Assembly: GCF_000472665.1 (NCBI RefSeq)
Contig: NZ_AXAC01000025.1
Coordinates: 1 to 64,000, forward strand
From: Acetobacterium malicum subsp. dehalogenans DSM 11527
GTDB lineage: Bacteria > Bacillota > Clostridia > Eubacteriales > Eubacteriaceae
Length of the DNA stretch: 64,000 nt
Direction: 5' to 3'
Shown piece by piece: positions 12,718 to 31,429 of the stretch. A model generated the notes under the pieces. The model made no database searches. It worked only from the letters and a program-made list of their open reading frames with translations, and was not told where the DNA came from. A program made the position numbers and the translations under genes. Position 1 is the first letter of the stretch, and each line of letters begins with the position of its first letter.

Positions 12718-12720
12718 GTC

Positions 12721-13503: not shown

Positions 13504-13529
13504 AAACTCTTCTTTCTGATCGGGACTAT

Positions 13530-15966: not shown

Positions 15967-16904
15967 CAGCCCTCCTGTTCTAATCGAATCCGGGGATCCA
16001 GATAATGATAAATGATATCGGTCACCAGATTAACGCCCACATAAATAATGGCCATCCAGATGACATAGGCCTGGATCATCGGGTAATCCCGATTCAAAAT
16101 CGAATCCACTGCCAGTTTTCCGACCCCATCCCACATAAAAATTGATTCAATAATTGCTGTTCCACCCAGCAGCGAACCGATCGATAAGGCCAGCAGGGTG
16201 ATAATGGTCAGCATCGCGGTCTTCAGCACACTGGCAAAAAGCACCACTGGCTCCCTGATCCCCCTGGCCCGGGCCCCGATGACATAGTCCTTATTCAGCT
16301 CATCCAGTACCGTGGTGCGAACCTGGCGGGTGTATTTTGCCGACATGGCTATTGCCAGGGTCAGCGTCGGCAAAACGATGCTCTTTAAGCTGCCATTGCC
16401 CATAACCGGAAACAGCTTTAGCTGTAAGGCTAAAAAATAGATCAGCAGCAATGAGACAAAAAAGCCCGGTAAGGCATTGCCAATAAAACTGAAAAAGCGG
16501 ATCAGATAATCGGTGAAACGATTATGCCGGACGGCCGCTAAAACGCCAAAGGGAATCGAAATCAGGACGGTAAGTATTATTGAGGTCAGCGTCAGATAAA
16601 TTGTCGCTGGCAATTTTGACACAAAGGTTTCAAAAACCGGTTTATTGGAAATGTAGGAAACACCCATATCGCCGGTTAATACCCCGCCCAGCCAGCTGGT
16701 ATACTGGATAATAAAGGGCTGATCGAGCCCCAGTTCGTGCCTTTTTTCGGCCTTGACTTCTTCGGATACGCCGCCACTGGCATTGTCGTATAGCGCATCC
16801 ACGGCATCCCCGGCGGCTGACTGCATCAGGGTGAAGGATAACAGGGTGATACCCAGAATGATTGGTATTAATTGTAATAGACGTTTTCCAACGTATTTTT
16901 TCAT
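15966..16904 (-). CDS. ABC transporter permease (NikB-like), cluster 2
   Basis: This is a 312-residue permease with the typical N-terminal KRLLQLIPIILGITLL helix, the LGLDQPFIIQYTSWL periplasmic motif, and GGTAIIESIFMWDGVGKL near the end. It is the first gene of cluster 2. Its promoter (16945-16973) overlaps the terminator of the LysR gene and is itself overlapped by a perfect palindrome. No cobalamin riboswitch precedes it, unlike clusters 1 and 3. Confidence 0.9.
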   Translation of the reverse strand: MKKYVGKRLLQLIPIILGITLLSFTLMQSAAGDAVDALYDNASGGVSEEVKAEKRHELGLDQPFIIQYTSWLGGVLTGDMGVSYISNKPVFETFVSKLPATIYLTLTSIILTVLISIPFGVLAAVRHNRFTDYLIRFFSFIGNALPGFFVSLLLIYFLALQLKLFPVMGNGSLKSIVLPTLTLAIAMSAKYTRQVRTTVLDELNKDYVIGARARGIREPVVLFASVLKTAMLTIITLLALSIGSLLGGTAIIESIFMWDGVGKLAVDSILNRDYPMIQAYVIWMAIIYVGVNLVTDIIYHYLDPRIRLEQEG

Positions 16905-16932
16905 TGATGCAAAACCTTTCTCGCATTAGCGC

Positions 16933-16973
16933 ATTTACCGGTAAATTTTATCACTTAAAAAATGGCGTTACAA
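16933..16973 (-). promoter_or_regulatory. Promoter of ABC cluster 2 with a palindromic operator candidate
   Basis: On the minus strand TTGTAA (16968-16973) and TAAAAT (16945-16950) are 17 bases apart. The perfect 14-bp palindrome ATTTACCGGTAAAT (16933-16946) starts at the edge of the -10 box and covers the expected transcription start. This is the position of a repressor site. The -35 lies within the terminator hairpin of the upstream LysR gene. Confidence 0.6.
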
Positions 16974-16999
16974 CCTCCATGGGGGGTTATTTCGCCATT
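16955..16999 (-). terminator. Terminator of the LysR-family gene
   Basis: On the minus strand AATGGCG and TAACC pair with GGTTG and CGCCATT, followed by a T run. It lies about 30 bases after the LysR stop codon. Confidence 0.75.
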
Positions 17000-17026
17000 C
17001 CAATTTAGCATACCTTCTTATTCCAT

Positions 17027-17959
17027 TTAGCCTTTAATGGGATCCCCCGATTCCAGATTTACCAAAATAAATTCCAGAAACCGCTTGCCCCATTCACTGT
17101 GCTCTTCTTGCCGTCTGCGAATATAGCCAAACATCACCACATTCTCCTTTTCGTATAAGGGAATACCGTTGATTTCCTTCTCGTCCACATCAGCAGTGAT
17201 ATAACCGCTTCCGATATTAGCCAGATCAGTGGTTTGCAGCAACTGCATCATAACACAGTCGCTGTTGGTCACCACCACACTCTCCAGGGCGGGCATGTCT
17301 TTACCTTGTGGATTGGTTATTTTCCAGTAATTATTGAGATCAAATTCGTCTTCATAGCACTGAACCAGCTTGAGCTTCTGCAGTTCTGCTTCACTGATCT
17401 CACGGGCCTGATAGAGCGGGTGTTTCTGCCCCAGATACAAAACCACCTGGGTTTTTTTAAGCTCCACAAACTCCAGGTGGTTTCTGGTCAAGATATACTG
17501 AAAGGCGGTATTCTGACTGTCCATCACATAGACAAAGCCCAGTTCGTCCTGATAACCGGCCACCCGCTTGATAATTTCTGCCACCGAGGCCGTATAAAGC
17601 TCAAAATGCAATTGTTTGACGTGAAAGCGATTATAAAAATCGGCAAATATCTTAGCCATCCAGGCACTGGGATTACTGGCGATCTGCAATTGCTCAATCC
17701 GATCCGTCTGCGAAAACGAGGCCAGCATTTCGATGTTATCAATGGCTTTGCAGGCATACTCATAGACGTGTTTGCCCCGGGATGACAACAAAATTCCCCG
17801 GCTTTTACGATGAAAAAGGCTAAATCCGAGATGTTCTTCCAGCGCCTTGATCGCCTTGCTGACATTGGGTTGGGTCGTATAGAGGATTTCGGCAGCTTTA
17901 CTGAATGATCCCACATCGGCACAGACCACAAAATATTTCAGTTGCTTAAGTTCAATCAT
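17027..17959 (-). CDS. LysR-family transcriptional regulator
   Basis: This protein of about 310 residues has an N-terminal winged helix (SFSKAAEILYTTQPNVSKAIKALEEHLG) and a co-inducer-binding domain. I use the ATG at 17959 (MIELKQLKYF), which gives the standard LysR N-terminus and has AAAGGTGTG upstream; the frame is open to 17992, where another ATG also has a purine-rich site. It follows the zinc hydrolase gene by about 80 bases with no clear terminator between, so they may share the transcript from riboswitch 2. Its target is unknown; the hydrolase or ABC cluster 2 are candidates. Confidence 0.85.
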   Translation of the reverse strand: MIELKQLKYFVVCADVGSFSKAAEILYTTQPNVSKAIKALEEHLGFSLFHRKSRGILLSSRGKHVYEYACKAIDNIEMLASFSQTDRIEQLQIASNPSAWMAKIFADFYNRFHVKQLHFELYTASVAEIIKRVAGYQDELGFVYVMDSQNTAFQYILTRNHLEFVELKKTQVVLYLGQKHPLYQAREISEAELQKLKLVQCYEDEFDLNNYWKITNPQGKDMPALESVVVTNSDCVMMQLLQTTDLANIGSGYITADVDEKEINGIPLYEKENVVMFGYIRRRQEEHSEWGKRFLEFILVNLESGDPIKG

Positions 17960-18041
17960 ATCACACACCTTTTTGAAGCGATTATCCTTCATTTAAAACC
18001 ATCCTTCTGCTAAAATCAATTGTCATCACGTTTTACTTTTT

Positions 18042-19022
18042 TTATTTCTCGTTTGCATCATACCCATCATTTTTTATTTTTCCATAGGCAATCATCGCGC
18101 TCTTTTTTAGTATTGTCAGCGAACTGACCTGATAAAGAACGATCCCATCATATTTGGCGATGGACGTTTGCAAAACTTTGCCAAAATAATCTTTGATTAC
18201 GCCCAGATTCTCGCCTTTTAAAAACGCCCCCCCCGCTTTTTTATTAGGGTACCAGCATCCCGTGACTTCGGCCTCTTCATAAACGGCATCCACCACCTCC
18301 AGCTGTTTACATGCGGATGTTCGCATCGGCTCATTCAAAACCTTTAAACAGCGCAAGACATTTTTAACATCTTCCTGGTATTTTTTAATCTCATCTTCAG
18401 ACCAGCGGGCTTCGCCGCCACGTTCAATCAGAATCCCGGGAATTCCCATCGAACCGGCATAATTATAGGCGCCACTGGTAGCCAGATACGATTTAACCCG
18501 ATAGGGCACCAATACCGCCGCTGCCATGGCTTTGGCTTCACTGACAACTGCCTCTTTGGCCGCACCGACATAATAAACGTAAGGGGTCAGAGACTCATAA
18601 CCATCCCCGGCATGAAGGTCAATAAAACGATCAGCTTTTTTAAAAAACATTTCTGTTAAAAAAGCCGCCAGCTTATCGCCGATTGTGCCGTCCGGATCAC
18701 CCGGAAAAATCCGGTTGAGGTTTTTTCCATCCTCGGCCACCACACTCATCGTCCGGTTTTCAAAGCCACTGATATTGACCGGATGAATGATGATCAGGCA
18801 GCCGGCTACTGCTTCTGGGATGATTTCCTGAGCCAGACGAATCGCCGTTTCAATGCCGGTATATTCGGCGTTATGGACTCCGCCGGTAATCAGCACTGTT
18901 TTTCCGGCACTTTGGCCATTAATAATGGTCACCGGCAATTTCAGCTCCGTTTGGGGAACCGCCACATAGCCGGAAACTTTTGCTCCCTTTTTTACCACCA
19001 GATTACCAATTACTATTTCCAA
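18042..19022 (-). CDS. AstE/AspA-family zinc hydrolase under cobalamin control
   Basis: This protein of about 326 residues belongs to the succinylglutamate desuccinylase/aspartoacylase (M14-like) family, which cleaves amide or peptide-like bonds with one zinc. Likely zinc ligands are His50 and Glu53 in GVHNAEYTG and His137 in DLHAGDG; GKNLNRIFPGD gives the substrate-binding Asn/Arg. I assign a TTG start at 19022 because AAAGGAGG lies 7 bases before it, inside the codons of the longer frame (ATG at 19043). Cobalamin riboswitch 2 sits directly upstream. A role in processing an imported ligand, corrinoid side chain or metallophore is inferred from this context only. Confidence 0.83.
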   Translation of the reverse strand: MEIVIGNLVVKKGAKVSGYVAVPQTELKLPVTIINGQSAGKTVLITGGVHNAEYTGIETAIRLAQEIIPEAVAGCLIIIHPVNISGFENRTMSVVAEDGKNLNRIFPGDPDGTIGDKLAAFLTEMFFKKADRFIDLHAGDGYESLTPYVYYVGAAKEAVVSEAKAMAAAVLVPYRVKSYLATSGAYNYAGSMGIPGILIERGGEARWSEDEIKKYQEDVKNVLRCLKVLNEPMRTSACKQLEVVDAVYEEAEVTGCWYPNKKAGGAFLKGENLGVIKDYFGKVLQTSIAKYDGIVLYQVSSLTILKKSAMIAYGKIKNDGYDANEK

Positions 19023-19045
19023 GTGTCTTCCTCCTTTTGTCAAAT

Positions 19046-19079: not shown

Positions 19080-19159
19080 ACAAATGATTGTATAAAAAAT
19101 CTCACACAATAATATCCATCTTCCCATCTTTCTCGCAGGTCAACAACGAATCTCATTAC

Positions 19160-19325
19160 AAGCAGGTCTTCTGGCTTACGGATCATCATCTTGATTTCGC
19201 CTTCCCGGTGTTTATACACCAGTGGCATCATGAAATCAGACTCCTCGCTTACAGCTGCGGGACAGCATGGGTTTTCAACCCATTTTCCTATTCTCCGTTG
19301 AATTTCAATTCAACAGCACTCGTAA
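19160..19325 (-). ncRNA. Cobalamin riboswitch 2 (controls the AstE-like gene)
   Basis: The minus strand has the B12 box AAGCCAGAAGACCTGC (19162-19177) and the conserved core with GGGTTGAAAACCC and CTGTCCCGCAGCTGTAAG. A terminator hairpin follows at 19046-19079. A promoter at 19347-19375 lies immediately upstream. Confidence 0.92.
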
Positions 19326-19333
19326 CGCATTAT

Positions 19334-20701
19334 TCAATTAGGGCTAACTATGCCATAGTTTCTGACTCCTGTCAAGGGTATTCCGGTTTTACTTGTGCTG
19401 TTGCAAAATAACGGTTCCAGCTCAACAAAGGTAAAATACTGCTTCAGTTTTTCTTCAATCAGGCGTAAACAACGATCCCCGGCATCCATCACCCCAATAA
19501 AATAAAGGTTATCGGGTATCAATAAACGCTGCGCCTTATATTTGGGGTCCATCTCATTTTTTAAGGAATTGCGTTTAAAAAGAAGTAACAGATCGGGCAT
19601 AATCGTATTAATATTTTCACGATTAATCCCATCGATGATCAGATAGTAACTATTTTGTTGATCCTCTATGGCCCGATTGCAAAAATCTATAAACCCCCAG
19701 GTTTCGAGCAGAAATTCATGTTCAGGTACTTCTTTTAAGGGCTTACTGATGATCGCCTGCTGTGGCAGTACGCAGTAAATGACCCGGTTTTCATCCTTCT
19801 TTTTCAGATACGAAAACACCAGTTTTTTGGCCATAAAGCTTTTACCTACTCCGGGTGATCTCCTTAAGATGATGCTCTTGTCTTTTTTGAGAAGATTCGA
19901 AATTTCTTCATATTTTGCTGTTTCCATTAAGGATTCTGCCAGAAATTTTTCCTGTGAATAGCTTTCCGTTCTCACCTTTGCCTTATTTCTTAGGCCCCAA
20001 ACATCACTCGAAAAGGACTTTCGGTAAAACAAATCTTCACCCTTCGCAAAAGATTTCGAATCGCTGCTGAATTTTTGCAGCGTGAAGCGAACCTCTGCCC
20101 GCCAGCCTGGATTTGTTTTCAGGTTTTTTATTTTATTTCGCTTTAATATCATTTCCTGAATATATGACAATTGGGCTTCGCCGTTAAAATCCTTTAAAAT
20201 TGCGACAATCTCATCACGATACGTTACTTCTTTATGAAAGCGCTTCTGCCAATAGGGTTCATTTAAAAACCGCTGATAATCCTGCGGTTGATCGTAAAAG
20301 GTAAAGTCAATCAACGCCTGGGACATCCAATTTTGGGGATTCGGTTTGACTTTCCAGACACTCCGGATAAAGGTGAAAAAATACCACTGCTTCTTTTTAG
20401 ATAAAGCGATCCAGTTGACATCAATCTTTCTTCGATTAAAATAATTTCCAGTCACAACACCCAGGGCCGTTATCTCCATTACCGAAACCACTTTCCCATT
20501 GGTTTCAAAGGGAATCCGACTTTTTCGATTATGGGTTGTTTTTAATGCGATCCGATCTCCCACTTTAATGGTATCAATGAGATCTCCGAGTTGATCTGAA
20601 CACTGGTTTTCCCAATACCCTCCGGTGATGAACTGCGACAACTGATCGTTTTTATTATCCGAAAAATCACTGACAAACCAGCTTGGTCGATTATCCTTCA
20701 T
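19334..20701 (-). pseudogene. C-terminally truncated, orphan McrB-like AAA+ ATPase
   Basis: The 455-residue frame resembles McrB-type AAA+ GTPases of type IV restriction systems. The N-terminal part (about 1-120) has an EVE/PUA-like pattern (GGYWEN, VGDRIALKT, WYFFTF). Walker A SPGVGKS is at 282-288, a Walker B-like IIDGINREN at 355-363, and the McrB motif MNTADR appears as MDAGDR at 405-410. The usual acidic residue after the Walker B Asp is Gly358. The family continues for roughly another hundred residues after FVELEP, but here the frame runs into the promoter of riboswitch 2 and stops. No McrC gene is adjacent. I infer a decayed remnant cut by a recombination event. The start at 20701 has AAGGAG upstream. 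Confidence 0.65.
19347..19375 (-). promoter_or_regulatory. Promoter of cobalamin riboswitch 2
   Basis: On the minus strand TTGACA and CATAGT are 17 bases apart. The promoter lies inside the last codons of the truncated McrB-like frame, so those codons are really regulatory DNA. Confidence 0.6.
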
Positions 20702-20814: not shown

Positions 20815-21576
20815 TTATTTTTCTGCAAAAATCATAAACATTGGCGTCGATGCATAATTTATCTGTTCTTCCTGATCCCAGACTACCGCCCCAATCCCCT
20901 GCTCAACCATAACCTTATTAAAGCCAGTATTAATCAGAACCGCGGCATCCCATTGGGGCCGCATGGTTCGGCTCAGGGGCAGATTCATGGCAATCTCCTC
21001 CATCGCTGTGGTATCGGTCTTGATATAGTGATCGTTTACCCCTTCTTTTTGGGAATTGATACGATCATTAAAGTATTCCTGTCGTTTTTCTCCGTCATAA
21101 AGATGGAGATACCAGTTGGCATCAAAATTCAGAATCCGTCCCCCCGGAGCCAGTACCCGATGCCATTCCTTGTAGGCTTCGTCAGGACGTTCCAGATTCC
21201 AGGTCAGATTGCGGGTGACAATCAGATCAAAACTGTTATCTGCAAAACTCAAGTGATGGGCATCCATCTGCATAAACTTGATTTGATTTTGGTAATAACC
21301 GGCATTTTGTTTGGCCTTATGAAGCATGGCATCAGTATAGTCAACCGCTGTTACATCATAACCGCAGGATGCCATGGTAATGGCAAAGAAACCCGGGCCG
21401 GTACCAATATCCAAAACTTTTAGCTTACGGCCAATCACTGCCGGCTTATGACGATTGATCAGTTCTTTCCAGACATCCATTTTGTAGCTGTTCAGCTCCG
21501 CCACATTGACCTCGGAATAACCTTCCGAACGTTTATCCCAATAATTTTCCACTTTTTCAAGGATGTTTTCCATCAT
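20815..21576 (-). CDS. Class I SAM-dependent methyltransferase 1
   Basis: This 253-residue Rossmann-fold enzyme of the Methyltransf_11/UbiE type has SAM-binding motif LDIGTGPGFF near residue 53, VTAVDY (motif II) and an APGGRIL segment. It shares with methyltransferases 2 and 3 in this window unusual blocks: (S/T)RN(L/V)TW-L, a DANW-HxxD-like His/Trp-rich stretch, LPLS...RP-WD, and a C-terminal (T/S)PMFMI. The three are therefore one family. I start at the ATG at 21576 (AAAAGGGG upstream); the longer frame is encoded by the leader hairpin. The substrate is unknown. Tandem genes 1 and 2 near three metal/peptide transporters suggest modification of a metal-binding ligand. Confidence 0.82.
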   Translation of the reverse strand: MMENILEKVENYWDKRSEGYSEVNVAELNSYKMDVWKELINRHKPAVIGRKLKVLDIGTGPGFFAITMASCGYDVTAVDYTDAMLHKAKQNAGYYQNQIKFMQMDAHHLSFADNSFDLIVTRNLTWNLERPDEAYKEWHRVLAPGGRILNFDANWYLHLYDGEKRQEYFNDRINSQKEGVNDHYIKTDTTAMEEIAMNLPLSRTMRPQWDAAVLINTGFNKVMVEQGIGAVVWDQEEQINYASTPMFMIFAEK

Positions 21577-21783: not shown

Positions 21784-22530
21784 TTATGATTCTTTAATCG
21801 CCGAAATCATAAACATCGGGGAAGTACCATATAGCATTTTTTCTTTTGCATCCCAAACCTTTTCAGTAATATCCCGGATATAATCAACCTCCACAAAACC
21901 ATTACTTTTAAGAACGTTAATATCCCAATCCGGGCGCTTCACCTTGCTCAGAGGCAACAGTTCAAAGTTAATCATTTGATCGTGGTTATTCGAATCGGAA
22001 AAGGTTGATCCAAAAACTTCAAGACAACGCTGCTCCCGTTCCTTCACCTCTGCCATCAATGCATCATCAAAATAATGGTGATGCCAATTGGCATCAAAGA
22101 TTAACAGTTTTCCGCCGGGTTTTAAAATCCGATGCCATGATTCATAAACAACAGTGGGGTTTTTAAGTGTCCAGGTGACATTCCTGCTTAAAATCAGATC
22201 AAAGGAATCATCCTCAAAGTTTAATTCCTGACTATCCATTATTTTTAAAACCGGCCAGACTCCGTGTTTCTTGGCATTCTTTTTGGCAATTTCCAGCATT
22301 CCCTGGGAACTGTCAATCCCGGTAACATCATGACCGACCTGACTTAGAATAATTGAGAAAAACCCCGGACCAGTACCGATATCGAGAATTTTTAACTTTT
22401 GCTGCTGCGAAACCTCACCAAAAATGATTGATTTCCAGGCGGCCGAGCGGAAACTGTTCAATTCATCATCGATAATCCGACCATAATTATCAGCTGCCTG
22501 ATCCCAATACTGACTCATCTTATTACTCAT
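21784..22530 (-). CDS. Class I SAM-dependent methyltransferase 2
   Basis: This 248-residue paralog of methyltransferases 1 and 3 has LDIGTGPGFFSI as SAM motif I, DSFDLILSRNVTW, a His-rich DANWHHHYFD stretch, and LPLSKVKRPDWD. The C-terminus ends TSPMFMISAIKES. I use the ATG at 22530 (MSNKMSQYW), preceded by AGAAGG; the frame is open to 22578 through the leader hairpin. It has its own consensus promoter and an attenuator-like terminator directly before the gene. It lies upstream of methyltransferase 1 but has a separate promoter. The His-rich motif could contact a metal or an imidazole-containing substrate; this is speculation. Confidence 0.82.
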   Translation of the reverse strand: MSNKMSQYWDQAADNYGRIIDDELNSFRSAAWKSIIFGEVSQQQKLKILDIGTGPGFFSIILSQVGHDVTGIDSSQGMLEIAKKNAKKHGVWPVLKIMDSQELNFEDDSFDLILSRNVTWTLKNPTVVYESWHRILKPGGKLLIFDANWHHHYFDDALMAEVKEREQRCLEVFGSTFSDSNNHDQMINFELLPLSKVKRPDWDINVLKSNGFVEVDYIRDITEKVWDAKEKMLYGTSPMFMISAIKES

Positions 22531-22550
22531 TATACACCTTCTTTCTAAAC

Positions 22551-22726: not shown

Positions 22727-24088
22727 TTATTCTAACCCCTCCAGGGCATTAAGTCGTTTGAATTCACCCATCCAGTCGCCTTTGAAATAATAAATCGCCA
22801 TTCCCAATACCGTGGAAGCCCAGGTAATCGGATAGGTCATAGCAATCCCGGTGATACTCTGATTGGATGCCATAATCATAAACAGCAGTACGGTCCGCAA
22901 TACGCAGATATTGGTTAAAATAATCACCATCGGGGGCACTGCTTTACCGGCTCCGCGAATGGTGCCACCCAGCACTTCCAGAATCAGGTAGATAAAATAA
23001 AACGGTACCGTCACCGAAATGATCTGAACCCCCAGATCCAGTACCCCCGGATCACTGTTGATGGCGCTAAAAGCCTGGCGGCCAAAGGCCAGTACCAGGG
23101 CGCTCATAACAGCAGTAACCCCAACACCCATCGCCAGACAAACCCGGGTGCCTTTTTTAACCCGCTCGTATTCATTGGCTCCCAGATTCTGGCTGGTAAA
23201 GGTCGAAATCGCCTGCCCAAAAGCCAGAATCGGCAGATAGATTAACAACTCGACTTTAAAATAGGCGGTAAAGGCCGCAATTGAATCGACCCCCAAACTA
23301 TTAACATGAAATTGTACAAAGACGTTGGACACTGTAATTACTAAGGCTTGTAGACCGCTGGGAATGCCAATTTTTAAAATACTTTTAAAAAACTGAACAT
23401 CCACCCGAATCTTTTTCCACTCCAGCCGGGATTCCGGCTCCAGACGCATCAGATATAATAATGCCAGCCCGGCGGCCACCGACTGCGAAAACAGGGTCGC
23501 CAGCGCAACGCCGACCACACCGTTTTTAAAAAGGAGAATAAAAACCGCATCCATCACTACATTGACCAGACCGCCAATTAGCTGAATATACATCGTGGCC
23601 CGGGAATCCCCCAGGGCTCTGATAATCCCGGCCACCATATTATAGGTAACCACCGCAATAATGCTGATAAAGTATACCCGGACATAAGAAACCGCCATAC
23701 CCATGATCTCATCTGGCGTATTAATCATCTTAAGAAAATAGGGTGCCCCGATCAGACCGATCACCATCATGATCAAACCACAGATAAAAGCCAACCCTAC
23801 GGTGGTGTGAATCACCTTTTTTAATTCACTTTTCTTGCCACTGCCAAATACGTAAGCGGTCACCGCACTGGAACCGACCGACATCCCCGAAAAAAAACCA
23901 ACCAGACAGGTGACAAATAACGTACTGGCACCGACTGCAGCGGCAGCTTCCTTGCCCAGAAAATTTCCCACGTAGATCAGATCAACGGTATTGTAAAGTT
24001 GCTGAATAAAGCTGGTTCCCAATAGCGGTAGGGCAAAAGATAGCAACTTTTTCCAAATGACGCCTTCTGTTAAACTGTTGTTTTTCAT
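22727..24088 (-). CDS. MATE-family multidrug/metabolite exporter
   Basis: This 453-residue membrane protein has twelve predicted helices in two halves. The first begins with the family pattern LLSFALPLLGTSFIQQLYNTVD-like, and the second with LKIGIPSGLQ. MATE proteins export organic cations or metabolites using Na+ or H+. The promoter is at 24107-24135. It is monocistronic between the exporter end of operon 3 and the methyltransferase 2 promoter. The neighbourhood of ligand-modifying enzymes and importers makes export of a small ligand thinkable, but ordinary drug efflux is the default reading. Confidence 0.9.
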   Translation of the reverse strand: MKNNSLTEGVIWKKLLSFALPLLGTSFIQQLYNTVDLIYVGNFLGKEAAAAVGASTLFVTCLVGFFSGMSVGSSAVTAYVFGSGKKSELKKVIHTTVGLAFICGLIMMVIGLIGAPYFLKMINTPDEIMGMAVSYVRVYFISIIAVVTYNMVAGIIRALGDSRATMYIQLIGGLVNVVMDAVFILLFKNGVVGVALATLFSQSVAAGLALLYLMRLEPESRLEWKKIRVDVQFFKSILKIGIPSGLQALVITVSNVFVQFHVNSLGVDSIAAFTAYFKVELLIYLPILAFGQAISTFTSQNLGANEYERVKKGTRVCLAMGVGVTAVMSALVLAFGRQAFSAINSDPGVLDLGVQIISVTVPFYFIYLILEVLGGTIRGAGKAVPPMVIILTNICVLRTVLLFMIMASNQSITGIAMTYPITWASTVLGMAIYYFKGDWMGEFKRLNALEGLE

Positions 24089-24218: not shown

Positions 24219-24241
24219 AAAAAGATCACCGCTAAGTGACC
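24219..24241 (-). terminator. Terminator of ABC operon 3
   Basis: On the minus strand GGTCAC pairs with GTGATC, followed by TTTTT. It overlaps the end of the EamA gene and so closes the long operon. Confidence 0.65.
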
Positions 24242-25149
24242 TATTTGATGGTCTCTTTTTCGATCATCAAATGCTTATTGACGCTCTCTTCTTTTGGGGT
24301 GTTTTTAATCCGCCCAATGGCAATACATCCAAAAACAATCATCACTCCGCCGATGATCGTATAAATACTGGGAATCTCTTTCCAAAATGCAAATCCCCAA
24401 AAAGCATTGAAAACAATACCGATATAACGGACAAACTCGACGGTTACAGCATTTTCACTGGTAAAAGCACGCGTCAGAAAGACCTGCGCCAATAACGATA
24501 CCACTCCAATAATAATTAAGCCACACCATTCGATAATATTTGGCATCACAAAATTACTCCACATCAGTGGTATCGATACTATTGTTGCCGTGATCATAAA
24601 ATAAAAAATTATTTCATAGGCATGATATCGTTGTCCCAGATAACGAATACAAACAGCTGCAATTCCAGAAAACATGGCGGCCAGAATTCCCCAAACGGCA
24701 ACCATTGAGAAGGTTGAATAGGAAAATGGGTTAATTGTAATCATCGCGCCGACAAAAACCACCGGTAAGATTGGATACATTTTGGGTAAAATTTTTTCTT
24801 TGAGAAAAAAATGTGCGAAAACAATCACAAAAACTGGTGACATATTGACCAGGACGATGGCATCGATTAATGGCATATTGGAAATTGCATAAAAATAAGC
24901 AATCATATAAAAAGCACCAGCACAGCCTCTTAACAGCAGCATTGGAATTCCTGATTTTGAAAATTCCACCTGCTCTTTTTTCATAAAAAACAAAATTAAA
25001 ACGGTTCCGATGATGCTTCTGAAAAATACAATTTCATTTGACGGGATTGCAGTACTGACCGCCTTAACCAATACATTCATAACACTAAATGTCAGTGATG
25101 ATAACAAAGCATAGGTGATTCCATTAATGATATTTTTTTGTTTATCCAA
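24241..25149 (-). CDS. EamA/DMT-family transporter, last gene of ABC operon 3
   Basis: The product of about 302 residues has ten membrane helices in two EamA repeats, typical of drug/metabolite exporters. I assign a TTG start at 25149 (MDKQKNIING) because AAAGGA lies 7 bases before it; the longer frame, whose first codon is also TTG (25239), would overlap the preceding ATPase gene by 38 bases. The gene follows the ATPase by about 50 bases with no terminator, so it is probably cotranscribed with methyltransferase 3 and the cluster 3 transporter. In Pseudomonas a protein of this family (CntI) exports the metallophore pseudopaline. The position here allows a similar role, which is inferred. Confidence 0.85.
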   Translation of the reverse strand: MDKQKNIINGITYALLSSLTFSVMNVLVKAVSTAIPSNEIVFFRSIIGTVLILFFMKKEQVEFSKSGIPMLLLRGCAGAFYMIAYFYAISNMPLIDAIVLVNMSPVFVIVFAHFFLKEKILPKMYPILPVVFVGAMITINPFSYSTFSMVAVWGILAAMFSGIAAVCIRYLGQRYHAYEIIFYFMITATIVSIPLMWSNFVMPNIIEWCGLIIIGVVSLLAQVFLTRAFTSENAVTVEFVRYIGIVFNAFWGFAFWKEIPSIYTIIGGVMIVFGCIAIGRIKNTPKEESVNKHLMIEKETIK

Positions 25150-25201
25150 ATCAACATCCTTTCCGATAAATAGGGCTGTCTTACTTCTCGTTGAGACAAC
25201 T

Positions 25202-26179
25202 TTATTTGATCTCGCATTTTTCCAGTCGATGACAGGCAATTAAATGATTATCTTTACACTTCTTTAATTCCGGCATTTTCAGCAAACACTTTTCGCATGC
25301 CATAACACATCTTTTAACAAAAGGACATCCTCCGGAACGGTTCATCGGACTCGGTGGTTCCCCAAATAAAACATTGATTTCTTTTTTGCGGTCACCATGA
25401 ACTGAAAAGACCGAATTCAATAATTCCTGTGTGTAGGGATGGTGGGCGGTATGCCCCAGTTCATCACTTTTCATCACCTCCACAATATTGCCCAGATACA
25501 TCACCACCACCCGATCACAAAAACTCTGAACCAGAGCCAGATCATGACTGATGAATAGATTGGTCATTCCCGTTTCTTGATGAATTTTTGTAAGCAGCTC
25601 AATAATCTGTTTCTGAATCGAAACATCGAGGGCACTGGTCACTTCATCACAAACGATCAAACTGGGATTTAGCGCCATCGCTCTGGCAATAACAACGCGC
25701 TGAAGTTCTCCTCCGCTTAACTGATGGGGAAATTTATCAAGATAGGACTGATCCAATTCCACCGCTTCCAGCATACGTTTTGATTCTTCCCGGGCTGTGT
25801 TTTTATTCATTTTTTTATAATTAATAAAAGGTTCATTGAGAAAAGCCCCTATTTTCATCCGCGGACTAAAGACATTAAAAGGATCTTGAAAAATAATCTG
25901 AAGCTCCTGTCTTAATTCTCTAAGCTGACCGCGCTGTAATTTAGAAATATCTTTCCCCTTAAAATAAATTTTTCCGTCGCTGACCTTTTCAATACAGGTA
26001 ACAAGCTTTCCCAGGGTGCTTTTCCCACAGCCACTTTCACCAACAATTGCCAACCGTTCGCCTTGGTACAAGTTGAGGCTGACTTCATTGACAGCAATCA
26101 GATTTTGATTTTTTTCTAACCGGTACTGCTTTGATACGGATTCCAGTTTTAATATTGTCTTCACTTGTTTATCCAACAC
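25202..26179 (-). CDS. Peptide/nickel-type ABC transporter ATPase (NikE/OppF-like), cluster 3
   Basis: This 325-residue ABC ATPase has Walker A GESGCGKST, signature LSGGELQR and Walker B LIVCDEVTSALD. Unlike the partners in clusters 1 and 2, it has the C-terminal Oligo_HPY extension, which here is rich in cysteine (CPFVKRC, ACEKC, KKC, ACHRLEKC). Four or more Cys in this tail could hold an iron-sulfur cluster or metal, as reported for some Opp/Dpp ATPases. It overlaps the NikD-like gene by 11 bases. Confidence 0.88.
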   Translation of the reverse strand: MLDKQVKTILKLESVSKQYRLEKNQNLIAVNEVSLNLYQGERLAIVGESGCGKSTLGKLVTCIEKVSDGKIYFKGKDISKLQRGQLRELRQELQIIFQDPFNVFSPRMKIGAFLNEPFINYKKMNKNTAREESKRMLEAVELDQSYLDKFPHQLSGGELQRVVIARAMALNPSLIVCDEVTSALDVSIQKQIIELLTKIHQETGMTNLFISHDLALVQSFCDRVVVMYLGNIVEVMKSDELGHTAHHPYTQELLNSVFSVHGDRKKEINVLFGEPPSPMNRSGGCPFVKRCVMACEKCLLKMPELKKCKDNHLIACHRLEKCEIK

Positions 26180-26966
26180 AACCCACCTTTAATTCCGGTA
26201 CTGCTGACAGTAATTGTCTGGTATAGGGATCCTGAGGATGATCTATAATCTGATCACAGGCTCCCCATTCCACCAGCTGTCCGGCTTTCATCACCACTAC
26301 ATAATCTGCCAGATAGGCTGCCACCCCCATATTATGGGTTACCAGCAGGATGGTTGTACCATAATCATTTCGCAACTCGGCCATCTGTCTGACCACCTGT
26401 GCCTGGATGGTGACATCCAGGGCACTGGTTGGTTCATCCGCCAACAGCAGCTGGGGATTCATTGTCATTCCCATGGCTATGGCCACCCGCTGACACATGC
26501 CACCCGACAGCATGAACGGGTAAGCATTCATTACCCGTTCGGCATCACAGAGACAAAGCTGTTTAAGCATTTCGATGGCTTTTTCTCTGGCTGCTATTTT
26601 GGAAATTTTCAGATGGCTGCGAATTGTTTCAACAAACTGATAACCAATCTTTTTTTTGCTGTCGAGATAACTGCCTCCATCCTGGAAAATCATCGAAATT
26701 TTGTTGCCGCGGATCTCATGCATTTCTTGATTACTGTAGGTTACCAGGTTTTTTTCCTGAAACCAGATTTCTCCTGATTCAATGGTTCCACCTGATGTCA
26801 TCAATCCGATAATTGACCGGATAAGAGTTGATTTTCCACTGCCGCTTTCCCCAACAATGGCGACAATCGACTGTTGTGGAACATTAAAACTGACATCCTC
26901 CACAGCAGTTTTCTGGTTATGATAACGGATCGTCAGATTCTTTATTTCCAGAAGTTTCTCATTCAA
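26169..26966 (-). CDS. Peptide/nickel-type ABC transporter ATPase (NikD-like), cluster 3
   Basis: This 265-residue ABC ATPase has Walker A GESGSGKST, signature LSGGMCQR and Walker B LLLADEPTSALD, followed by LVTHN. It overlaps the binding-protein gene by 8 bases, so translation is coupled. It resembles the cluster 2 NikD-like protein more than the cluster 1 one, in agreement with the shared B-C-A-D-E gene order of clusters 2 and 3. Confidence 0.88.
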   Translation of the reverse strand: MNEKLLEIKNLTIRYHNQKTAVEDVSFNVPQQSIVAIVGESGSGKSTLIRSIIGLMTSGGTIESGEIWFQEKNLVTYSNQEMHEIRGNKISMIFQDGGSYLDSKKKIGYQFVETIRSHLKISKIAAREKAIEMLKQLCLCDAERVMNAYPFMLSGGMCQRVAIAMGMTMNPQLLLADEPTSALDVTIQAQVVRQMAELRNDYGTTILLVTHNMGVAAYLADYVVVMKAGQLVEWGACDQIIDHPQDPYTRQLLSAVPELKVGCVG

Positions 26967-28491
26967 TGGTAATATCCTTGTTCATCAAATAATAATCAGC
27001 GGGATGTGCTTTAAAATTCTTTACCTTGGTTGAACCAACAATATTAGAAGGCGTGTAACTGACAAACAGGTTAACCGCGTCATCGAGTAAAATCTGTGAA
27101 GCTTCCTGGGCCAATTTCTGACGGTCTTCAATGACGAAAGTACTATTAAGTTTGCTGACCAGGTTATCCATTTTTTCACTGCTGTAATAGCTGTAATTAC
27201 TGGAACCAGCAGTTTTATAAGTCAGTGATAAATAAGCCTGGGGATCTCCGGTGGGTGCGGCATTACTGCCATTATAATACATATCAAAGGTTCCAGCTTT
27301 ACGGATATCCGATAAGTTTTCTGATTGAATCAACTCGACTTCAATCCCGATATTTTTCAGATCGGCCTGAATAGCCTGCGACAGGGTTTCACCTGTTCCA
27401 CCACTGGTATCCAGGTAAAATTGCAGATGAATCTTTTCACCGTTAATTTCCCGAATGCCATCCCCATTGGTATCCACATAACCGGCATCCTGTAGAATCT
27501 TATTGGCTTTAGCCTGATCAAAAGCATAGCTTTTTAATTTATCACTACCAAACGGTAGCGCCGTTGAGAATAATCCTGTGGCCGGAACGGCATGAATCAG
27601 CTCAGCATATTTATCTTTGTCGATCCCATAAGAAATGGCCTGACGAACTTCCAATTTGGACAAGGCTGGTCGCTGCAAATTCATGCAAATGGTTGAGCCC
27701 CGGAGGCCGGTAACTTCCGAAATCTGATATTCTTTTTCATCTTCAAACAAGGCTAAGCTGGTCGCTGGAATGGTTTGCGCAAGATCAATCTCACCAGATT
27801 GGAGAGCCAGTACCCGACTATCAGGATCCTTGATATACTGGTAGCTGACCGTTTCCAGTCCCGGTTTTCCATCCCAGTAATCAGCATTGACAACACATTC
27901 CGCACTGAGTTCGGAAACATATTCGGTTACCGCATATGGGCCGGTTCCCACCGGGGTATTAGCAATGGTTGCTTGATCGACTGAGACATCGATAACTGAA
28001 AAGATCGGCTCCACCAGATTATTAAGAATGGCTCCGCATGGTTCACTGGTAACAATTGTCAGCTCCTGTCCCTCAGCGATCATTTTATCCAGTTTAAAGT
28101 AGGTGGTCGCCCGTTTATTTTTATCGAAGGTGCGCTGGAAACAATTTTTAACCGCTTCTGCTGTAAGCGGATTTCCATTTTGAAATTTAACCCCTTCGCG
28201 AATATGAAACTTCCAGGTCAGATCATCAACCTGTTCCCATTTATCTGCCAGGCAGGCCTCGACTTCAATATTTTCATTTAGTTTTGTTAAAGTTTCCGCA
28301 ATCCCTGTCCGGGTTAATGACCAGCCATTATACTCGTTAGCCGGATCCAGATCTGTACCAAGCCAGTATATTCCCATATTTAAATGCTTTTCAGAACCGG
28401 AATCACTACTCCCTGAAGCACTTGAACAACCACTAAACAGCATCCCCACCAGGGAAACAATCAAACACAACGACAACATTCTTTTTTTCAT
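26959..28491 (-). CDS. Substrate-binding lipoprotein (NikA-like, SBP_bac_5), cluster 3
   Basis: This 510-residue family 5 solute-binding protein has a signal peptide ending in lipobox FSGC, followed by a Ser/Gly-rich linker. Family landmarks are WKFHIREGVKFQNG and ALQSGEIDLAQ. It shares several blocks with the cluster 2 protein (DTNGDGIREINGEK, PTGDPQAYLS, KAHPADYY at the C-terminus). It sits between permease and ATPase genes in an operon headed by a methyltransferase and controlled by cobalamin riboswitch 3, so a cobalt- or nickel-ligand complex is a plausible cargo. Confidence 0.9.
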   Translation of the reverse strand: MKKRMLSLCLIVSLVGMLFSGCSSASGSSDSGSEKHLNMGIYWLGTDLDPANEYNGWSLTRTGIAETLTKLNENIEVEACLADKWEQVDDLTWKFHIREGVKFQNGNPLTAEAVKNCFQRTFDKNKRATTYFKLDKMIAEGQELTIVTSEPCGAILNNLVEPIFSVIDVSVDQATIANTPVGTGPYAVTEYVSELSAECVVNADYWDGKPGLETVSYQYIKDPDSRVLALQSGEIDLAQTIPATSLALFEDEKEYQISEVTGLRGSTICMNLQRPALSKLEVRQAISYGIDKDKYAELIHAVPATGLFSTALPFGSDKLKSYAFDQAKANKILQDAGYVDTNGDGIREINGEKIHLQFYLDTSGGTGETLSQAIQADLKNIGIEVELIQSENLSDIRKAGTFDMYYNGSNAAPTGDPQAYLSLTYKTAGSSNYSYYSSEKMDNLVSKLNSTFVIEDRQKLAQEASQILLDDAVNLFVSYTPSNIVGSTKVKNFKAHPADYYLMNKDITIE

Positions 28492-28503
28492 CAGTTACTC
28501 CTC

Positions 28504-29391
28504 TTAATCATTATCTTTTGGATCTAATATATCTCTCAGGCTGTCGCCCAGTAGATTAAACACAATTACCACAAGCAGTAAAGCCATCCCCGGATAAATC
28601 ATCATCCACGGGGCGGTTTGCATATATTGCCGGCTTTCATTGATCATGTATCCCCATTCCGGGGTCGGTGGCTGGGAGGCCAATCCCAAAAACGAAAGTC
28701 CGGCCAGAGACATCATCATCATGCCAATGTCCAGTGTTGCCATAATCACCAGTGGTGTAATTAAATTCGGTAAAACATATTTGAACATAATCTGAACTTC
28801 TGTTGCTCCACCAAAGCGAGCCTGTTCGATATAATTCTTCTCTCGAATCGAGGAAGCCAGACTCCTGGTCATCCGTGCGTATTTGGTCCACTGAATGAGA
28901 GACAGGGCAATAATCGTATTAACCAGCCCCGGCCCTAATATTCCGGCTACAGCGATTGCAAAAACCATACTGGGGAAGGCCAGAAAAATATCTGTAATCC
29001 GCATAATCACCGTATCAAACCGGCCCCCGATATAGCCTGAGGTTGTTCCCAGCACAATACCAATGCCGGCCACAATCGTTACCATCAGAAATGAAAGCGA
29101 AAATGAGTTGCTGGCACCACAAAGAATTCGCGAAAAAACATCGCGCCCCAAAACATCGGTTCCACAGAGGTATTCACGACTGGGCGGCTTTAAGGTCATA
29201 TCATAGTTTGTCAGTAATGGATCCATTGGTGCCAGAATATTCCCCAGCGCAGCAATGATGACCAGTAAAACCGCCAGTGACAATAAAATCCCAAAGCGTA
29301 ACCGCTTTCCGGTGACCGTTTTTATTTGAAGCGGCGAAGTAAGACGTTTTTCCGCCCGGCTGGCCTTGTACTTTTCAATTATCTGTTCCAT
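28504..29391 (-). CDS. ABC transporter permease (NikC-like), cluster 3
   Basis: This 295-residue permease has the YLCGTDVLGRDVFSR segment and the EAA loop near LSFLGLASQPPTPEWG. Its start overlaps the NikB-like stop (ATGA), and it is followed by the binding-protein gene after 12 bases. About six helices are visible. Confidence 0.9.
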   Translation of the reverse strand: MEQIIEKYKASRAEKRLTSPLQIKTVTGKRLRFGILLSLAVLLVIIAALGNILAPMDPLLTNYDMTLKPPSREYLCGTDVLGRDVFSRILCGASNSFSLSFLMVTIVAGIGIVLGTTSGYIGGRFDTVIMRITDIFLAFPSMVFAIAVAGILGPGLVNTIIALSLIQWTKYARMTRSLASSIREKNYIEQARFGGATEVQIMFKYVLPNLITPLVIMATLDIGMMMMSLAGLSFLGLASQPPTPEWGYMINESRQYMQTAPWMMIYPGMALLLVVIVFNLLGDSLRDILDPKDND

Positions 29392-30329
29392 TATATCCTT
29401 CCCTTCATTCTAATTTGCGGATCGAGTAAATGGTAACAGATATCAACGATCAGATTAACTGTTACAAAAATGATCGCCATCCAAACGACATATCCCTGTA
29501 TTAAGGGATAATCCCGAACTGCGATGGCTTCCACCACCATGCTGCCGATACCATGCCAGGAAAAAATTGTTTCCACTATTGCTGCTCCACCAAGCAAGTG
29601 TCCCACTGACAGACCAATCAGGGTCACCAGGGTCAGCATCGCATTGGGAATTACATGAAAAATAAGAATCTGTTTTTCACTGATCCCTCTGGCCCGGGCA
29701 CCGACCACATATTCCTGGGTTAGTTCCCCTAATACAGCGCCCCGGATATGACGAACATAGGTTGACACCATCGGGATGGTCAGGGTTATGACCGGCAGGA
29801 TCAACCCCTTTAAATTATCGGTGCTGACTACCTTAAACCAGCCCAGTTTTACTGACATCACATAAATCAGAATCAGAGCCAGCCAAAAATTAGGCATTGA
29901 AATACCCATAAATGAAAAGAAACGAATCAGATAATCGACAAATTTATTCTTTTTCACGGCCGCTGTAATTCCCAATGGAAAGGCAATCAGGAACATCACC
30001 ACCATCGATGTCCCAGCCAGCTTTAAGGTTCCCGGCAATTTTTTACTCATCTGATCAAAAACCGAATCGCCAAACTTATAGGAACTTCCAAAATCACCTT
30101 GAAGCACATTTCCTAACCAGCTCAAGTAACGCATCAAAAAAGGTTGATTCAGCCCCATTTCGTCCCGGGTTGCTTCCAATAATTCTTCAGTTGGTGTTGT
30201 TCCCATCGACAGATACTTCATTTCCGCTGCGTCACTGGGTGCCAGCGTGGTTACAAAAAAAGTTAAAAAAGAGACGCCCAGTAAGACAATCACTAATTGC
30301 CCCAGTCTTTTTAAAATATATGTCTTCAC
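29391..30329 (-). CDS. ABC transporter permease (NikB-like), cluster 3
   Basis: This 312-residue permease begins with KRLGQLVIVLLGVSFL, has the MGLNQPFLMRYLSWL periplasmic motif, and GGAAIVETIFSWHGIGSM near the end. Its start lies 17 bases after the methyltransferase 3 stop codon with no terminator between, which ties the methyltransferase to the transporter. Confidence 0.9.
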   Translation of the reverse strand: MKTYILKRLGQLVIVLLGVSFLTFFVTTLAPSDAAEMKYLSMGTTPTEELLEATRDEMGLNQPFLMRYLSWLGNVLQGDFGSSYKFGDSVFDQMSKKLPGTLKLAGTSMVVMFLIAFPLGITAAVKKNKFVDYLIRFFSFMGISMPNFWLALILIYVMSVKLGWFKVVSTDNLKGLILPVITLTIPMVSTYVRHIRGAVLGELTQEYVVGARARGISEKQILIFHVIPNAMLTLVTLIGLSVGHLLGGAAIVETIFSWHGIGSMVVEAIAVRDYPLIQGYVVWMAIIFVTVNLIVDICYHLLDPQIRMKGRI

Positions 30330-30346
30330 TATCCACCTCTTCGATA

Positions 30347-31093
30347 TTATTTTTCAGCAAAGATCATAAATCCCTTAATGACTTCCCTTTCCACATCACT
30401 CCGCCGAATCGTCTCTTTATTCGTAATTTTAATCGCAAAATCTGTGACCCCTAATTCAATCAAGGCATTGCTATCCCACTGGGGTCTGATTTCTTTTGAC
30501 AATGGTAAGTCTCTGGCGATATTATCGATGATGGTCATATCCACTCCGTCAATGACGCCATGCTGGTTTATGGCTTTTTTATTATTATAGGATTGTTGAT
30601 AAAATTGATCACAATAGTGATAATAATGATTACCATCATGATTTAACATTTTTCCCTGGGGTCTTAATACCCGCAGCCATTCCGAATAAGCCTTCATCGG
30701 GTACTCCAGATTCCAGGTTAAATTTCTACTGACCACAAAATCAAAACTTTCATCCTCAAAGGCCAGATTCTGGGCATCCATCTGTAAAAAGTCGATTGAA
30801 ACACCAAAACGCTCGGCATTTTTTTGGGCTTCAACTAACATGTTGTCAGTATAATCAACGGCAGTCACCTGATAACCGGACTGGGCCAGCATGATCGAAA
30901 AAAAACCCGGACCACAGCCAATATCCAACACCCGCTGATAATCAGGTAGTGGTGCAAAGCTAACAATATTTTTTATCCACGTTTCTTTTTCACGGCTTTC
31001 TAGTTCCTCGACATTCCCCCTTGAAAAGCTGGGGGCCCTCATATTCCAATACGATCTGATTTGTTCAAGTTTTTCTGGTTGGTAAATCACCAT
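30347..31093 (-). CDS. Class I SAM-dependent methyltransferase 3, first gene of ABC operon 3
   Basis: This 248-residue enzyme is of the same family as methyltransferases 1 and 2: SAM motif LDIGCGPGFFSI, VTAVDYTDNML, DESFDFVVSRNLTWNLEYP, a His/Tyr-rich GNHYYHYCD stretch and LPLSKEIRPQWD. I start at the ATG at 31093, which has AGGAGG 7 bases upstream; the frame is open to 31210 through leader sequence. It heads the operon NikB-NikC-NikA-NikD-NikE-EamA and lies behind cobalamin riboswitch 3. It could methylate, or transfer the aminocarboxypropyl group of SAM to, a metal ligand that the transporter then takes up. Which reaction it performs cannot be told from sequence. Confidence 0.83.
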   Translation of the reverse strand: MVIYQPEKLEQIRSYWNMRAPSFSRGNVEELESREKETWIKNIVSFAPLPDYQRVLDIGCGPGFFSIMLAQSGYQVTAVDYTDNMLVEAQKNAERFGVSIDFLQMDAQNLAFEDESFDFVVSRNLTWNLEYPMKAYSEWLRVLRPQGKMLNHDGNHYYHYCDQFYQQSYNNKKAINQHGVIDGVDMTIIDNIARDLPLSKEIRPQWDSNALIELGVTDFAIKITNKETIRRSDVEREVIKGFMIFAEK

Positions 31094-31128
31094 AACAATT
31101 CCTCCTGCTAAATTTCTCATTTTTTTAT

Positions 31129-31163
31129 AAAAAAAAAGAGTTTCTTTATTTAAAAAGAAACCC
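31129..31163 (-). terminator. Terminator of cobalamin riboswitch 3
   Basis: On the minus strand GGGTTTCTTT pairs with AAAGAAACTC and is followed by a run of nine T residues, between the B12 box and the start of methyltransferase 3. Confidence 0.85.
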
Positions 31164-31225
31164 TTCCCATTTACAGGTATCATTTTGCATGACTGTTTTT
31201 TCCCCGGCATTCATGCGTGTTAATT

Positions 31226-31372
31226 AAGGCAGGTCTCCTGACTCATAGTTCATCCGCCTTCTTCCCTTCCCAAGCTCTGGCTCAGTGGTTAAAAGAATTT
31301 GTCCCTACATACAGTGGTGGGTCCGTGCTTTTTAAGCTTCCCTATTCTCCAATTTTCGAATTGGCACCTTGA
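31226..31372 (-). ncRNA. Cobalamin riboswitch 3 (controls ABC operon 3)
   Basis: The minus strand has the B12 box AGTCAGGAGACCTGCC (31228-31243) and an upstream core GGGAAGCTTAAAAAGCACGG...CCCACCACTGTATG. A promoter lies at 31401-31429 and a terminator at 31129-31163. Cobalamin should repress the methyltransferase 3-ABC-EamA operon. Confidence 0.93.
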
Positions 31373-31400
31373 TTTAGTTTAATTTATTTAATTTTTTTGA

Positions 31401-31429
31401 AGTTTAGCATACCCTAATAGTAAAGTCAA
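31401..31429 (-). promoter_or_regulatory. Promoter of cobalamin riboswitch 3
   Basis: On the minus strand TTGACT and TAAACT are 17 bases apart, just upstream of the aptamer. Confidence 0.6.

Follow-up and report, generated by a model that had tools for sequence, protein, structure and literature searches.

A methyltransferase family strongly linked to cobalt/nickel-type chelate importers, with a cobalamin riboswitch-led operon of Acetobacterium malicum subsp. dehalogenans as one instance

We analysed 64,000 nucleotides of Acetobacterium malicum subsp. dehalogenans DSM 11527 (contig NZ_AXAC01000025.1, positions 1 to 64,000; hereafter the window), in which a minus-strand operon joins a cobalamin riboswitch, a class I S-adenosylmethionine (SAM)-dependent methyltransferase that we call MT1, a Nik-type ATP-binding cassette (ABC) importer and an EamA transporter. 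The family to which MT1 belongs is strongly linked to importers of the cobalt/nickel chelate type in many bacteria and some archaea, and the MT1 operon is one instance of this widespread coupling rather than an isolated metallophore operon. The gene order, the regulatory leader, the family and its broad link to such importers were computed directly, and this link points to an unrecognised step in cellular cobalt and nickel uptake. The explanation that we favour, although with rather less than even confidence, is high-affinity uptake of a cobalt (or nickel) chelate with MT1 acting on the ligand in the cytoplasm. Both the release of cobalt and nickel from tight chelates and the ligands that carry these metals are poorly known in bacteria, and a methyltransferase family that stands beside unrelated importer types, LarC, CbiK, CobN and a putative CbtJKL offers a genetic handle on this release. 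Handles beginning with L denote loci and those with G genomes.

A riboswitch-led operon of MT1, NikBCADE and EamA

The host genome (4.05 Mb) has 14 cobalamin riboswitches and four NikB homologues, three of them inside the window (a fifth, weak match is a NikC). The MT1-Nik-EamA operon is real, and on the minus strand its elements run in the order listed here, with MATE, MT2 and MT3 beyond the final hairpin.

31211..31386, minus strand: cobalamin riboswitch aptamer (RF00174), first element of the operon; cmscan 94.5 bits, gathering score 31.5
31133..31168, minus strand: intrinsic terminator between aptamer and MT1 (expression platform); 15 pairs and a T run, fold z -2.88
30347..31093, minus strand: MT1, class I SAM-dependent methyltransferase of 248 amino acids; Pfam Methyltransf_11, confident structure model and fold matches
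29391..30329, minus strand: NikB/Opp2B-type permease; NCBIfam NF045470, 378.9 bits, cut-off 350
28504..29391, minus strand: NikC/Opp2C-type permease; NCBIfam NF045474, 324.1 bits, cut-off 300
26959..28491, minus strand: NikA-type substrate-binding lipoprotein; SBP_bac_5, best solved chains the nickel-binding proteins 3t66 and 4ofj
26169..26966, minus strand: NikD-type ATPase; family matches
25202..26179, minus strand: NikE-type ATPase; family matches
24241..25149, minus strand: EamA/DMT family transporter, probable exporter, accessory; Pfam EamA
24223..24242, minus strand: terminator-like hairpin 3' of EamA; hairpin scan

The start of MT1 was taken as the ATG at 31093, the mechanical open reading frame (ORF) opening at 31210. 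Gaps of 17 bases (MT1-NikB), 12 bases (NikC-NikA) and 52 bases (NikE-EamA) alternate with overlaps of 1 base (NikB-NikC), 8 bases (NikA-NikD) and 11 bases (NikD-NikE), and a terminator scan of the minus strand gave no candidate in the spaces between the MT1, Nik and EamA genes; weak candidates were scored inside genes, with 23 in the region on both strands against 11.4 expected. An earlier note on this DNA had described a riboswitch-led series of methyltransferase, two permeases, lipoprotein, two ATPases and EamA, with short gaps or overlaps and no internal terminator, and both the coordinates and the family matches agree with that description.

Both permeases exceed the NCBIfam nickel cut-offs (Opp2B and Opp2C models), a likeness to the nickel importers NikABCDE of E. 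coli and NikA/Opp2 of S. aureus, and the binding protein (NikA3) is nearest to the SaNikA and 3t66 structures, being closest among solved chains to nickel-binding proteins. The operon differs from these importers in that NikA3 falls below the NikA equivalog cut-offs (Opp5A_nikA 374.2 against 600; nickel_nikA 227.4 against 393) and in having a dedicated methyltransferase and a cobalamin leader. With the cobalt importers of the energy-coupling factor (ECF) type, CbiMNQO, of which two operons were read in the host genome, it shares a cobalt supply controlled by a cobalamin riboswitch, but CbiMNQO systems lack a binding protein and a methyltransferase of this family, and they import the ion rather than a chelate.

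The methyltransferase family accompanies importers in distant organisms

Neighbourhoods were compared at 80 loci picked by methyltransferase similarity alone (80 kept of 484 relatives found), whose sources include Clostridia, Negativicutes, Desulfovibrio, Helicobacter, Citrobacter, Proteus, Yersinia, Gilliamella, Sutterella, Parasutterella, Paenibacillus and methanogenic archaea, among others. By tblastn, homologues of NikA, NikB and NikC all lay within 8 kb of the methyltransferase at 57 of the 80 loci, and at least one of the three at 63; the remaining 17 include five with a FecCD permease and four with a TonB receptor. At 18 of the 80 the methyltransferase stands within 3 kb of the end of the locus.

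A second comparison covered 40 Eubacteriaceae genomes, 23 of which hold 52 family members between them. Within 10 kb of a NikB homologue lie 43 of these 52 members, compared with one of 24 control methyltransferases (p 3e-11, which is only indicative because the 40 genomes are related). The controls were found with a different query, whose 37 rows were reduced to 24 by removing 13 that overlapped family members, and the sole control near NikB (G013:C4:24138) is probably itself a divergent family member. None of nine weaker methyltransferases of the host genome is near NikB. Counted from the importer side, a family member stands within 10 kb of NikB at 35 of 89 Eubacteriaceae NikB loci. Nine members are not near NikB; four of them are in other metal-type settings, read as ECF systems (G031, G022), CobN (G003) and, by gene order and size, a FecCD-type importer (G002); three are on contigs shorter than 8 kb (one in G011, two in G039), and the members in G026 and G029 have no recognised importer nearby. 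The grouping of MT1 with NikBCADE and EamA is not fixed, since in G004, which has the closest MT1 (67 percent), the orthologue is followed by MATE and MT2. Co-occurrence with Nik-type importers, which the earlier note had named as support for its metallophore reading, was thus found in both comparisons. Searches of openly licensed literature (CC0, CC BY, CC BY-SA), including PMC4285132, PMC5140060, PMC11247825, PMC4207669, PMC7438024, PMC12239276, PMC7689651 and PMC11026637, gave no description of a link between this family and importers.

A collection of plasmids gave 77 records with a family match, of which nine were inspected. The methyltransferase adjoins nikB/nikC in Natronococcus and Haloterrigena, and an ABC importer annotated as iron-type in Ensifer, Shinella, Sulfitobacter and Sagittula, while in Proteus mirabilis it is followed by NikABCDE; two nickel importers of this organism, Nik and Ynt, serve urease (PMC11026637).

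A family member at the putative cbtJKL locus of S. meliloti

On pSymB of S. meliloti 1021, a cobalamin riboswitch (66246-66475) is followed by genes for Peripla_BP_2, FecCD and ABC ATPase proteins and then by a methyltransferase gene that starts 3 bases past the ATPase stop. Its product scores 146.5 bits against the family profile, compared with 27.7-65.6 for nine controls, and aligns at 34 percent over 154 amino acids. A review places CbtJKL on pSymB as a cobalt importer controlled by an adenosylcobalamin riboswitch (PMC7689651), and strains that lose it show a phenotype in growth when cobalt is scarce to trace levels (PMC7689651, PMC12239276). One other such riboswitch was found on pSymB, at 580 kb, and since this lies in the stretch 122,109-1,129,757 deleted from a replicon that retains the cbtJKL region (PMC12239276), the 66-kb locus of riboswitch, importer and methyltransferase should be cbtJKL.

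CbtJKL would then share with the MT1 operon a cobalamin riboswitch, a chelate-type ABC importer and a methyltransferase of the same family, encoded directly after the ATPase gene. It differs in that the importer is of the FecCD/Peripla_BP_2 type, as opposed to the SBP_bac_5/BPD_transp_1 type of the window, in that its methyltransferase is divergent, and in that no exporter was noticed among the listed ORFs of the S. meliloti locus. Because CbtJKL loss already gives a growth phenotype, S. meliloti allows an immediate test of what the methyltransferase does.

MT1 represents a family of class I methyltransferases

The structure model of MT1 (mean predicted local distance difference test score, pLDDT, 93.9) has the canonical fold of class I small-molecule methyltransferases, with VIA Z of about 20 to UbiG, CouO and glycine-sarcosine N-methyltransferase, which are tied. 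MT1 has the Rossmann domain and the glycine-rich SAM motif of the class, G59, G61 and D80 being present in all 76 family members, and W16, D80, D153, R203, P204 and D207 are likewise invariant in the 76; R123, N124 and W127 are conserved too. A profile of these members gives at least 135 bits to nine plasmid-borne members, including that of S. meliloti, and separates them from the nine controls. In a tree, the rhizobial and haloarchaeal members fall among other family members and seven of the nine controls fall outside, the other two, which are FmdE-linked, falling inside on a long branch; bootstrap is unsettled and the control branches are long, and we give the tree little weight. In the host genome, MT1 has strong matches (at E 1e-40 or better) to three sequences, all within the window, and nine other methyltransferases match it far more weakly (E 1e-9 or worse). 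With the permease scores and the three NikB homologues of the window, this marks the grouping as more than a chance one.

MT1 is below cut-off for all 25 best NCBIfam models of the 67 matched. The best of these is CpaM (NF043040), which was rejected as an identity for MT1 at 65.6 bits against a cut-off of 180. The same identity was rejected for the L093 member (61.1 against 180), for which corrinoid-type neighbours had suggested it; Pfam showed two CobN, a VWA protein and a Peripla_BP_2 protein beside that member.

Family members can be numerous: the G004, G013, G011 and G001 genomes (loci L064-L073) have up to nine each (in G013), and some open frames of about 435-450 or of 527 amino acids at these loci, between Nik-type operons, contain two methyltransferase matches.

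Cobalt or nickel is the indicated metal class

The neighbours of the family indicate cobalt or nickel as the likely metal class, as the earlier note had supposed from repression by cobalamin. LarC is near the methyltransferase at three of the 80 loci; L113 has LarC and an AIRC-domain (LarB-type) protein, and L132 has an AIRC-domain protein; an ORF that we read as LarE-like had no Pfam match. CsoR-family sensors are found at eight of the 80 loci. A series of riboswitch, CbiK, two family methyltransferases and Nik genes is found in L148, and in L093 (43-11699) a family member adjoins two CobN/Mg-chelatase proteins, a VWA protein, Peripla_BP_2 and a radical SAM protein. DUF4198 proteins adjoin the methyltransferase in L099 and L065. 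Together with the riboswitches described next, the nickel-binding structures nearest to NikA3 and the putative CbtJKL, the CbiK, CobN and LarC neighbours point to these metals.

A riboswitch stands ahead of both importer and family methyltransferase in the window, twice in L162, and in L135, L148, L091 (a partial match), L075, L077 and L078. These calls were made with a home-made profile built from the host's 14 riboswitches, considering the next seven co-directional genes, and since this profile may miss divergent riboswitches, at least as many of the 80 loci have a riboswitch as were counted. With Rfam, a cobalamin riboswitch was found ahead of the FecCD-type operons of L179, L182 and L183, and none at the gathering score in five other plasmid loci scanned alongside. 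Because the riboswitch is present at only some loci, it is a feature of a subset of them; the co-occurrence with riboswitches that the earlier note had looked for holds for that subset.

Nitrogenase-like genes occur at a few such loci. In L075 (2491-9680), Pfam matches give a series of riboswitch, NifH-like, two Oxidored_nitro, Peripla_BP_2, a 335-amino-acid protein, an ATPase and a family member, and gene sizes in L078 (9376-16511) are similar. On host contig C7 (L035, 1-7701), a cobalamin riboswitch precedes NifH-like, Oxidored_nitro, Peripla_BP_2, FecCD, an ORF placed where the ATPase would be, FmdE and a class I methyltransferase that belongs to a different family. This operon, which includes nitrogenase-like genes, thus joins methyltransferase and importer in a second way. 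In L092 (2859-14536) and L096, the family member lies between two systems read as ECF-type, with a pair of 580-amino-acid ABC half-transporters and MATE.

Exporters, synthases and hydrolases around the family

The neighbours of the family bear on whether MT1 would make a ligand or process one. EamA, MATE and operon neighbours were counted with a home-made gene caller that may miss genes, and the 114 loci used for EamA and MATE contain near-duplicates (e.g., L089 and L109). By phmmer, EamA, which was sought with a single sequence, was found at the window locus only (1 of 114) and MATE at 15 of 114. Clusters of neighbours present in at least three of the 80 loci comprise importers, AstE, LysR, CsoR, MATE, TonB receptors, LarC, CbiK-like, FmdE and ABC half-transporters, as well as antisense ORFs that are artefacts and some proteins of housekeeping type; no recognised synthase is among these clusters. 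At 34 of the 80 loci, 77 further genes are closely spaced with the methyltransferase and read in its direction; scanned with Pfam, they gave Peripla_BP_2 (6), FecCD (5), TonB receptor barrel and plug (5), Ni_insertion (3) and AIRC (3) as the families with at least three members, and those with two include MFS_1, class I/II aminotransferase and glutamine amidotransferase domains. EamA has at most one member in this set, being absent from the best 25 families, the last of which have single members.

Hydrolases recur on the same chain as the methyltransferase. AstE-type hydrolases lie within 8 kb of the methyltransferase at 14 of the 80 loci, and fusions were found in the order MT-AstE-MT at five loci and AstE-MT at four; in L117, L123, L131, L159 and L168, single chains of 813-819 amino acids comprise a methyltransferase, an AstE-type hydrolase and a second methyltransferase. 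In L092, an ATC_hydrolase-family protein precedes the family member. With hydrolase and methyltransferase on one chain beside an importer, ligand processing reads more easily, and the single EamA in 114 loci, the AstE fusions and the finding of no recurring biosynthetic partner among the neighbours scanned together lead us to favour cytoplasmic action on a chelate ligand.

The earlier note had taken EamA as a part of the system and had drawn a parallel to CntL, a SAM-using synthase of opine metallophores. The distribution of EamA does not support it as a core component, and homology of MT1 to CntL/NAS was set aside, since MT1 has the methyltransferase fold instead and the NAS family PF03059 is over cut-off in none of the 40 genomes (weak 19-bit rows occur in G027 and G028, none in the host; a control in Methanosarcina acetivorans was positive, and CntL may fall outside PF03059). 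PF10100 (CntM) matched none of the 40 genomes, and no control genome matched it either. No NAS structure is among the best 50 matches in either of two fold comparisons, which is not probative. Of the reading as a metallophore operon, the importer link, cobalt/nickel as the likely metal class and, for a subset, the riboswitches are supported, and the core role of EamA and the CntL parallel are not.

A proposed role in the release of chelated metal

In the explanation that we favour, the operon would be made only when cobalamin is scarce; cobalamin binding to the leader would let the terminator form and would stop expression. NikA would capture a metal-ligand complex, which NikBCDE would import, and MT1 would methylate the ligand in the cytoplasm. 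For Co(II) and Ni(II) no biological reductive release comparable to that of Fe(III) is known, and because this route is closed to them we propose that the chelate is weakened when one of the donor atoms of the ligand is methylated, which would free the metal for corrinoid synthesis; alternatively, methylation may keep the spent ligand from rebinding metal. EamA (in the window) or MATE (elsewhere) may expel the spent ligand, and AstE-type hydrolases could be a second ligand-breaking step. More tentatively, we suggest a class of systems that import Co(II)/Ni(II) and would free the metal inside the cell by chelator methylation, a redox-free counterpart of siderophore reduction, with one methyltransferase family serving Nik-type, FecBCD-type, TonB-linked and perhaps ECF or YbtPQ-like importers from Acetobacterium to rhizobia and haloarchaea, CbtJKL included.

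Several points weigh against this explanation. The importers of Ni-(His)2 and staphylopine are not known to require such a methyltransferase, and no biochemical or genetic datum was found on any family member. The association is incomplete: eight of the 80 loci have no Nik component, FecCD or TonB receptor near the methyltransferase, 17 of the 40 Eubacteriaceae genomes have no family match at E 1e-20, 54 of the 89 NikB loci are without a family member within 10 kb, and in Selenomonas pSRC1 no importer is present in the stretch inspected around the methyltransferase. Some loci do carry exporters, two MFS_1 proteins of the 77 neighbours included, and a secreted ligand would call for these. Methyltransferases are also ordinary tailoring enzymes, and certain opine zincophore clusters are reported by Morey and Kehl-Fie to carry additional ones (PMC7438024). 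In the available portion of PMC7689651, CbtJKL is described as a mover of Co(II), and no ligand is named.

The main rival, which we consider rather unlikely, is that MT1 makes or tailors a metallophore: it would methylate, for example, an amino-acid-like metabolite, EamA or MATE would export the product, and the cobalt or nickel complex would return through NikABCDE. This is the model of the earlier note with a methyl group in place of the aminobutyrate added by CntL. Its appeal is the likeness to opine metallophore systems (staphylopine cnt, pseudopaline), which have a SAM-using enzyme, a Nik/Opp- or FecCD-type importer, an EamA/MatE exporter and, in Gram-negatives, a TonB receptor; they differ in that MT1 has a methyltransferase fold and the window operon a cobalamin leader. 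The transporter palette is that of opine zincophore clusters, which have Opp- or FecCD-type importers, EamA/MFS/MatE exporters and TonB receptors (PMC7438024). The Opp-type importer and EamA/MatE exporter of the Cnt type are indeed present in the window, with EamA inside and MATE adjoining the operon, but conservation with the family does not extend to the exporter, and no partner synthase recurs among the neighbours examined. Tandem and fused methyltransferases could yield differently methylated private ligands, and one of the fold matches tied for best is glycine-sarcosine N-methyltransferase, whereas a single methylation rarely creates a strong chelator.

A scavenging system, in which foreign metal complexes are imported and the methyltransferase has no role in metal release but later detoxifies the free ligand or traps it, much as gliotoxin is dealt with by the S-methyltransferases GtmA and TmtA, seems improbable to us. 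It lies near the favoured explanation and is inseparable from it by sequence; the hydrolase fusions fit ligand breakdown, and GtmA and TmtA are among the Foldseek matches (ranks 18, 28, 34, 45 and 46 of 1,990), but so are many unrelated methyltransferases, and these fold matches are generic. The cobalamin riboswitches, CpaM as best NCBIfam model and the CobN beside the L093 member would suit import of a corrinoid or tetrapyrrole, with the methyltransferase acting on a corrin or corrinoid protein in the manner of CpaM. We regard this as very unlikely, as the CpaM cut-off is not reached, the host has separate riboswitch-controlled operons read as BtuFCD-like and CbiMNQO-like, and the metal ion is indicated by CbtJKL and by neighbours such as CsoR and LarC. 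Least probable of all is a mobile transport island in which methyltransferase and importer are merely co-inherited: modules are shuffled among Acetobacterium genomes, but the link is seen again with importers of unrelated types, and also in Alphaproteobacteria and Halobacteria, and there are fusions of the methyltransferase with a hydrolase. Should the enzyme make or process the ligand, metabolites of the wild type set against those of a mutant could reveal it.

Paralogues and further riboswitch operons in the window

Downstream of the MT1 operon on the minus strand, the window has two MT1 paralogues and two more riboswitch-led operons.

22727..24088, minus strand: MATE family transporter, a recurrent but inconstant neighbour; Pfam MatE
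21784..22533, minus strand: MT2, MT1 paralogue with 38 percent identity; similarity search
20815..21576, minus strand: MT3, MT1 paralogue with 45 percent identity; similarity search
19144..19338, minus strand: second cobalamin riboswitch, ahead of AstE-LysR-NikBCADE-CsoR; 123 bits, terminator-like hairpin behind
18042..19040, minus strand: AstE/AspA-family hydrolase; PF24827, nearest equivalog DoeB (TIGR02994, 88.8 bits, below its cut-off of 402.7)
11962..17992, minus strand: LysR regulator and second Nik-type importer (NikB2 C2 A2 D2 E2); ORF translations and comparison
11533..11871, minus strand: CsoR/RcnR-family metal sensor with a His-rich N-terminus; PF02583 and sequence
11131..11325, minus strand: third cobalamin riboswitch, ahead of NikA1 B1 C1 D1 E1; 99.2 bits, terminator-like hairpin
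5862..10912, minus strand: third Nik-type importer (NikA1 B1 C1 D1 E1); ORF translations

All three riboswitches of the window lead Nik-type operons, each with a terminator-like hairpin behind it. MT2 is preceded by its own sigma-70-like promoter (a 12-of-12 match at 22657-22629), so that cobalamin control of MT2 and MT3 is not indicated. MT3 is 96 percent identical to its Acetobacterium wieringae counterpart (L109), and relatives of the AstE/AspA hydrolase are the ones fused to family methyltransferases in other organisms.

Beside MT3, positions 19334-20701 encode a protein of 455 amino acids with a weak nSTAND3 match (29.5 bits), homologues of which adjoin MT3 in L064, L069, L076, L077, L080 and L081. 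A block of small genes (100, about 216 and 150 amino acids) at 31591-33040 borders differing Nik and methyltransferase modules in L067, L075 and L077, and it looks as if import modules are exchanged at this place.

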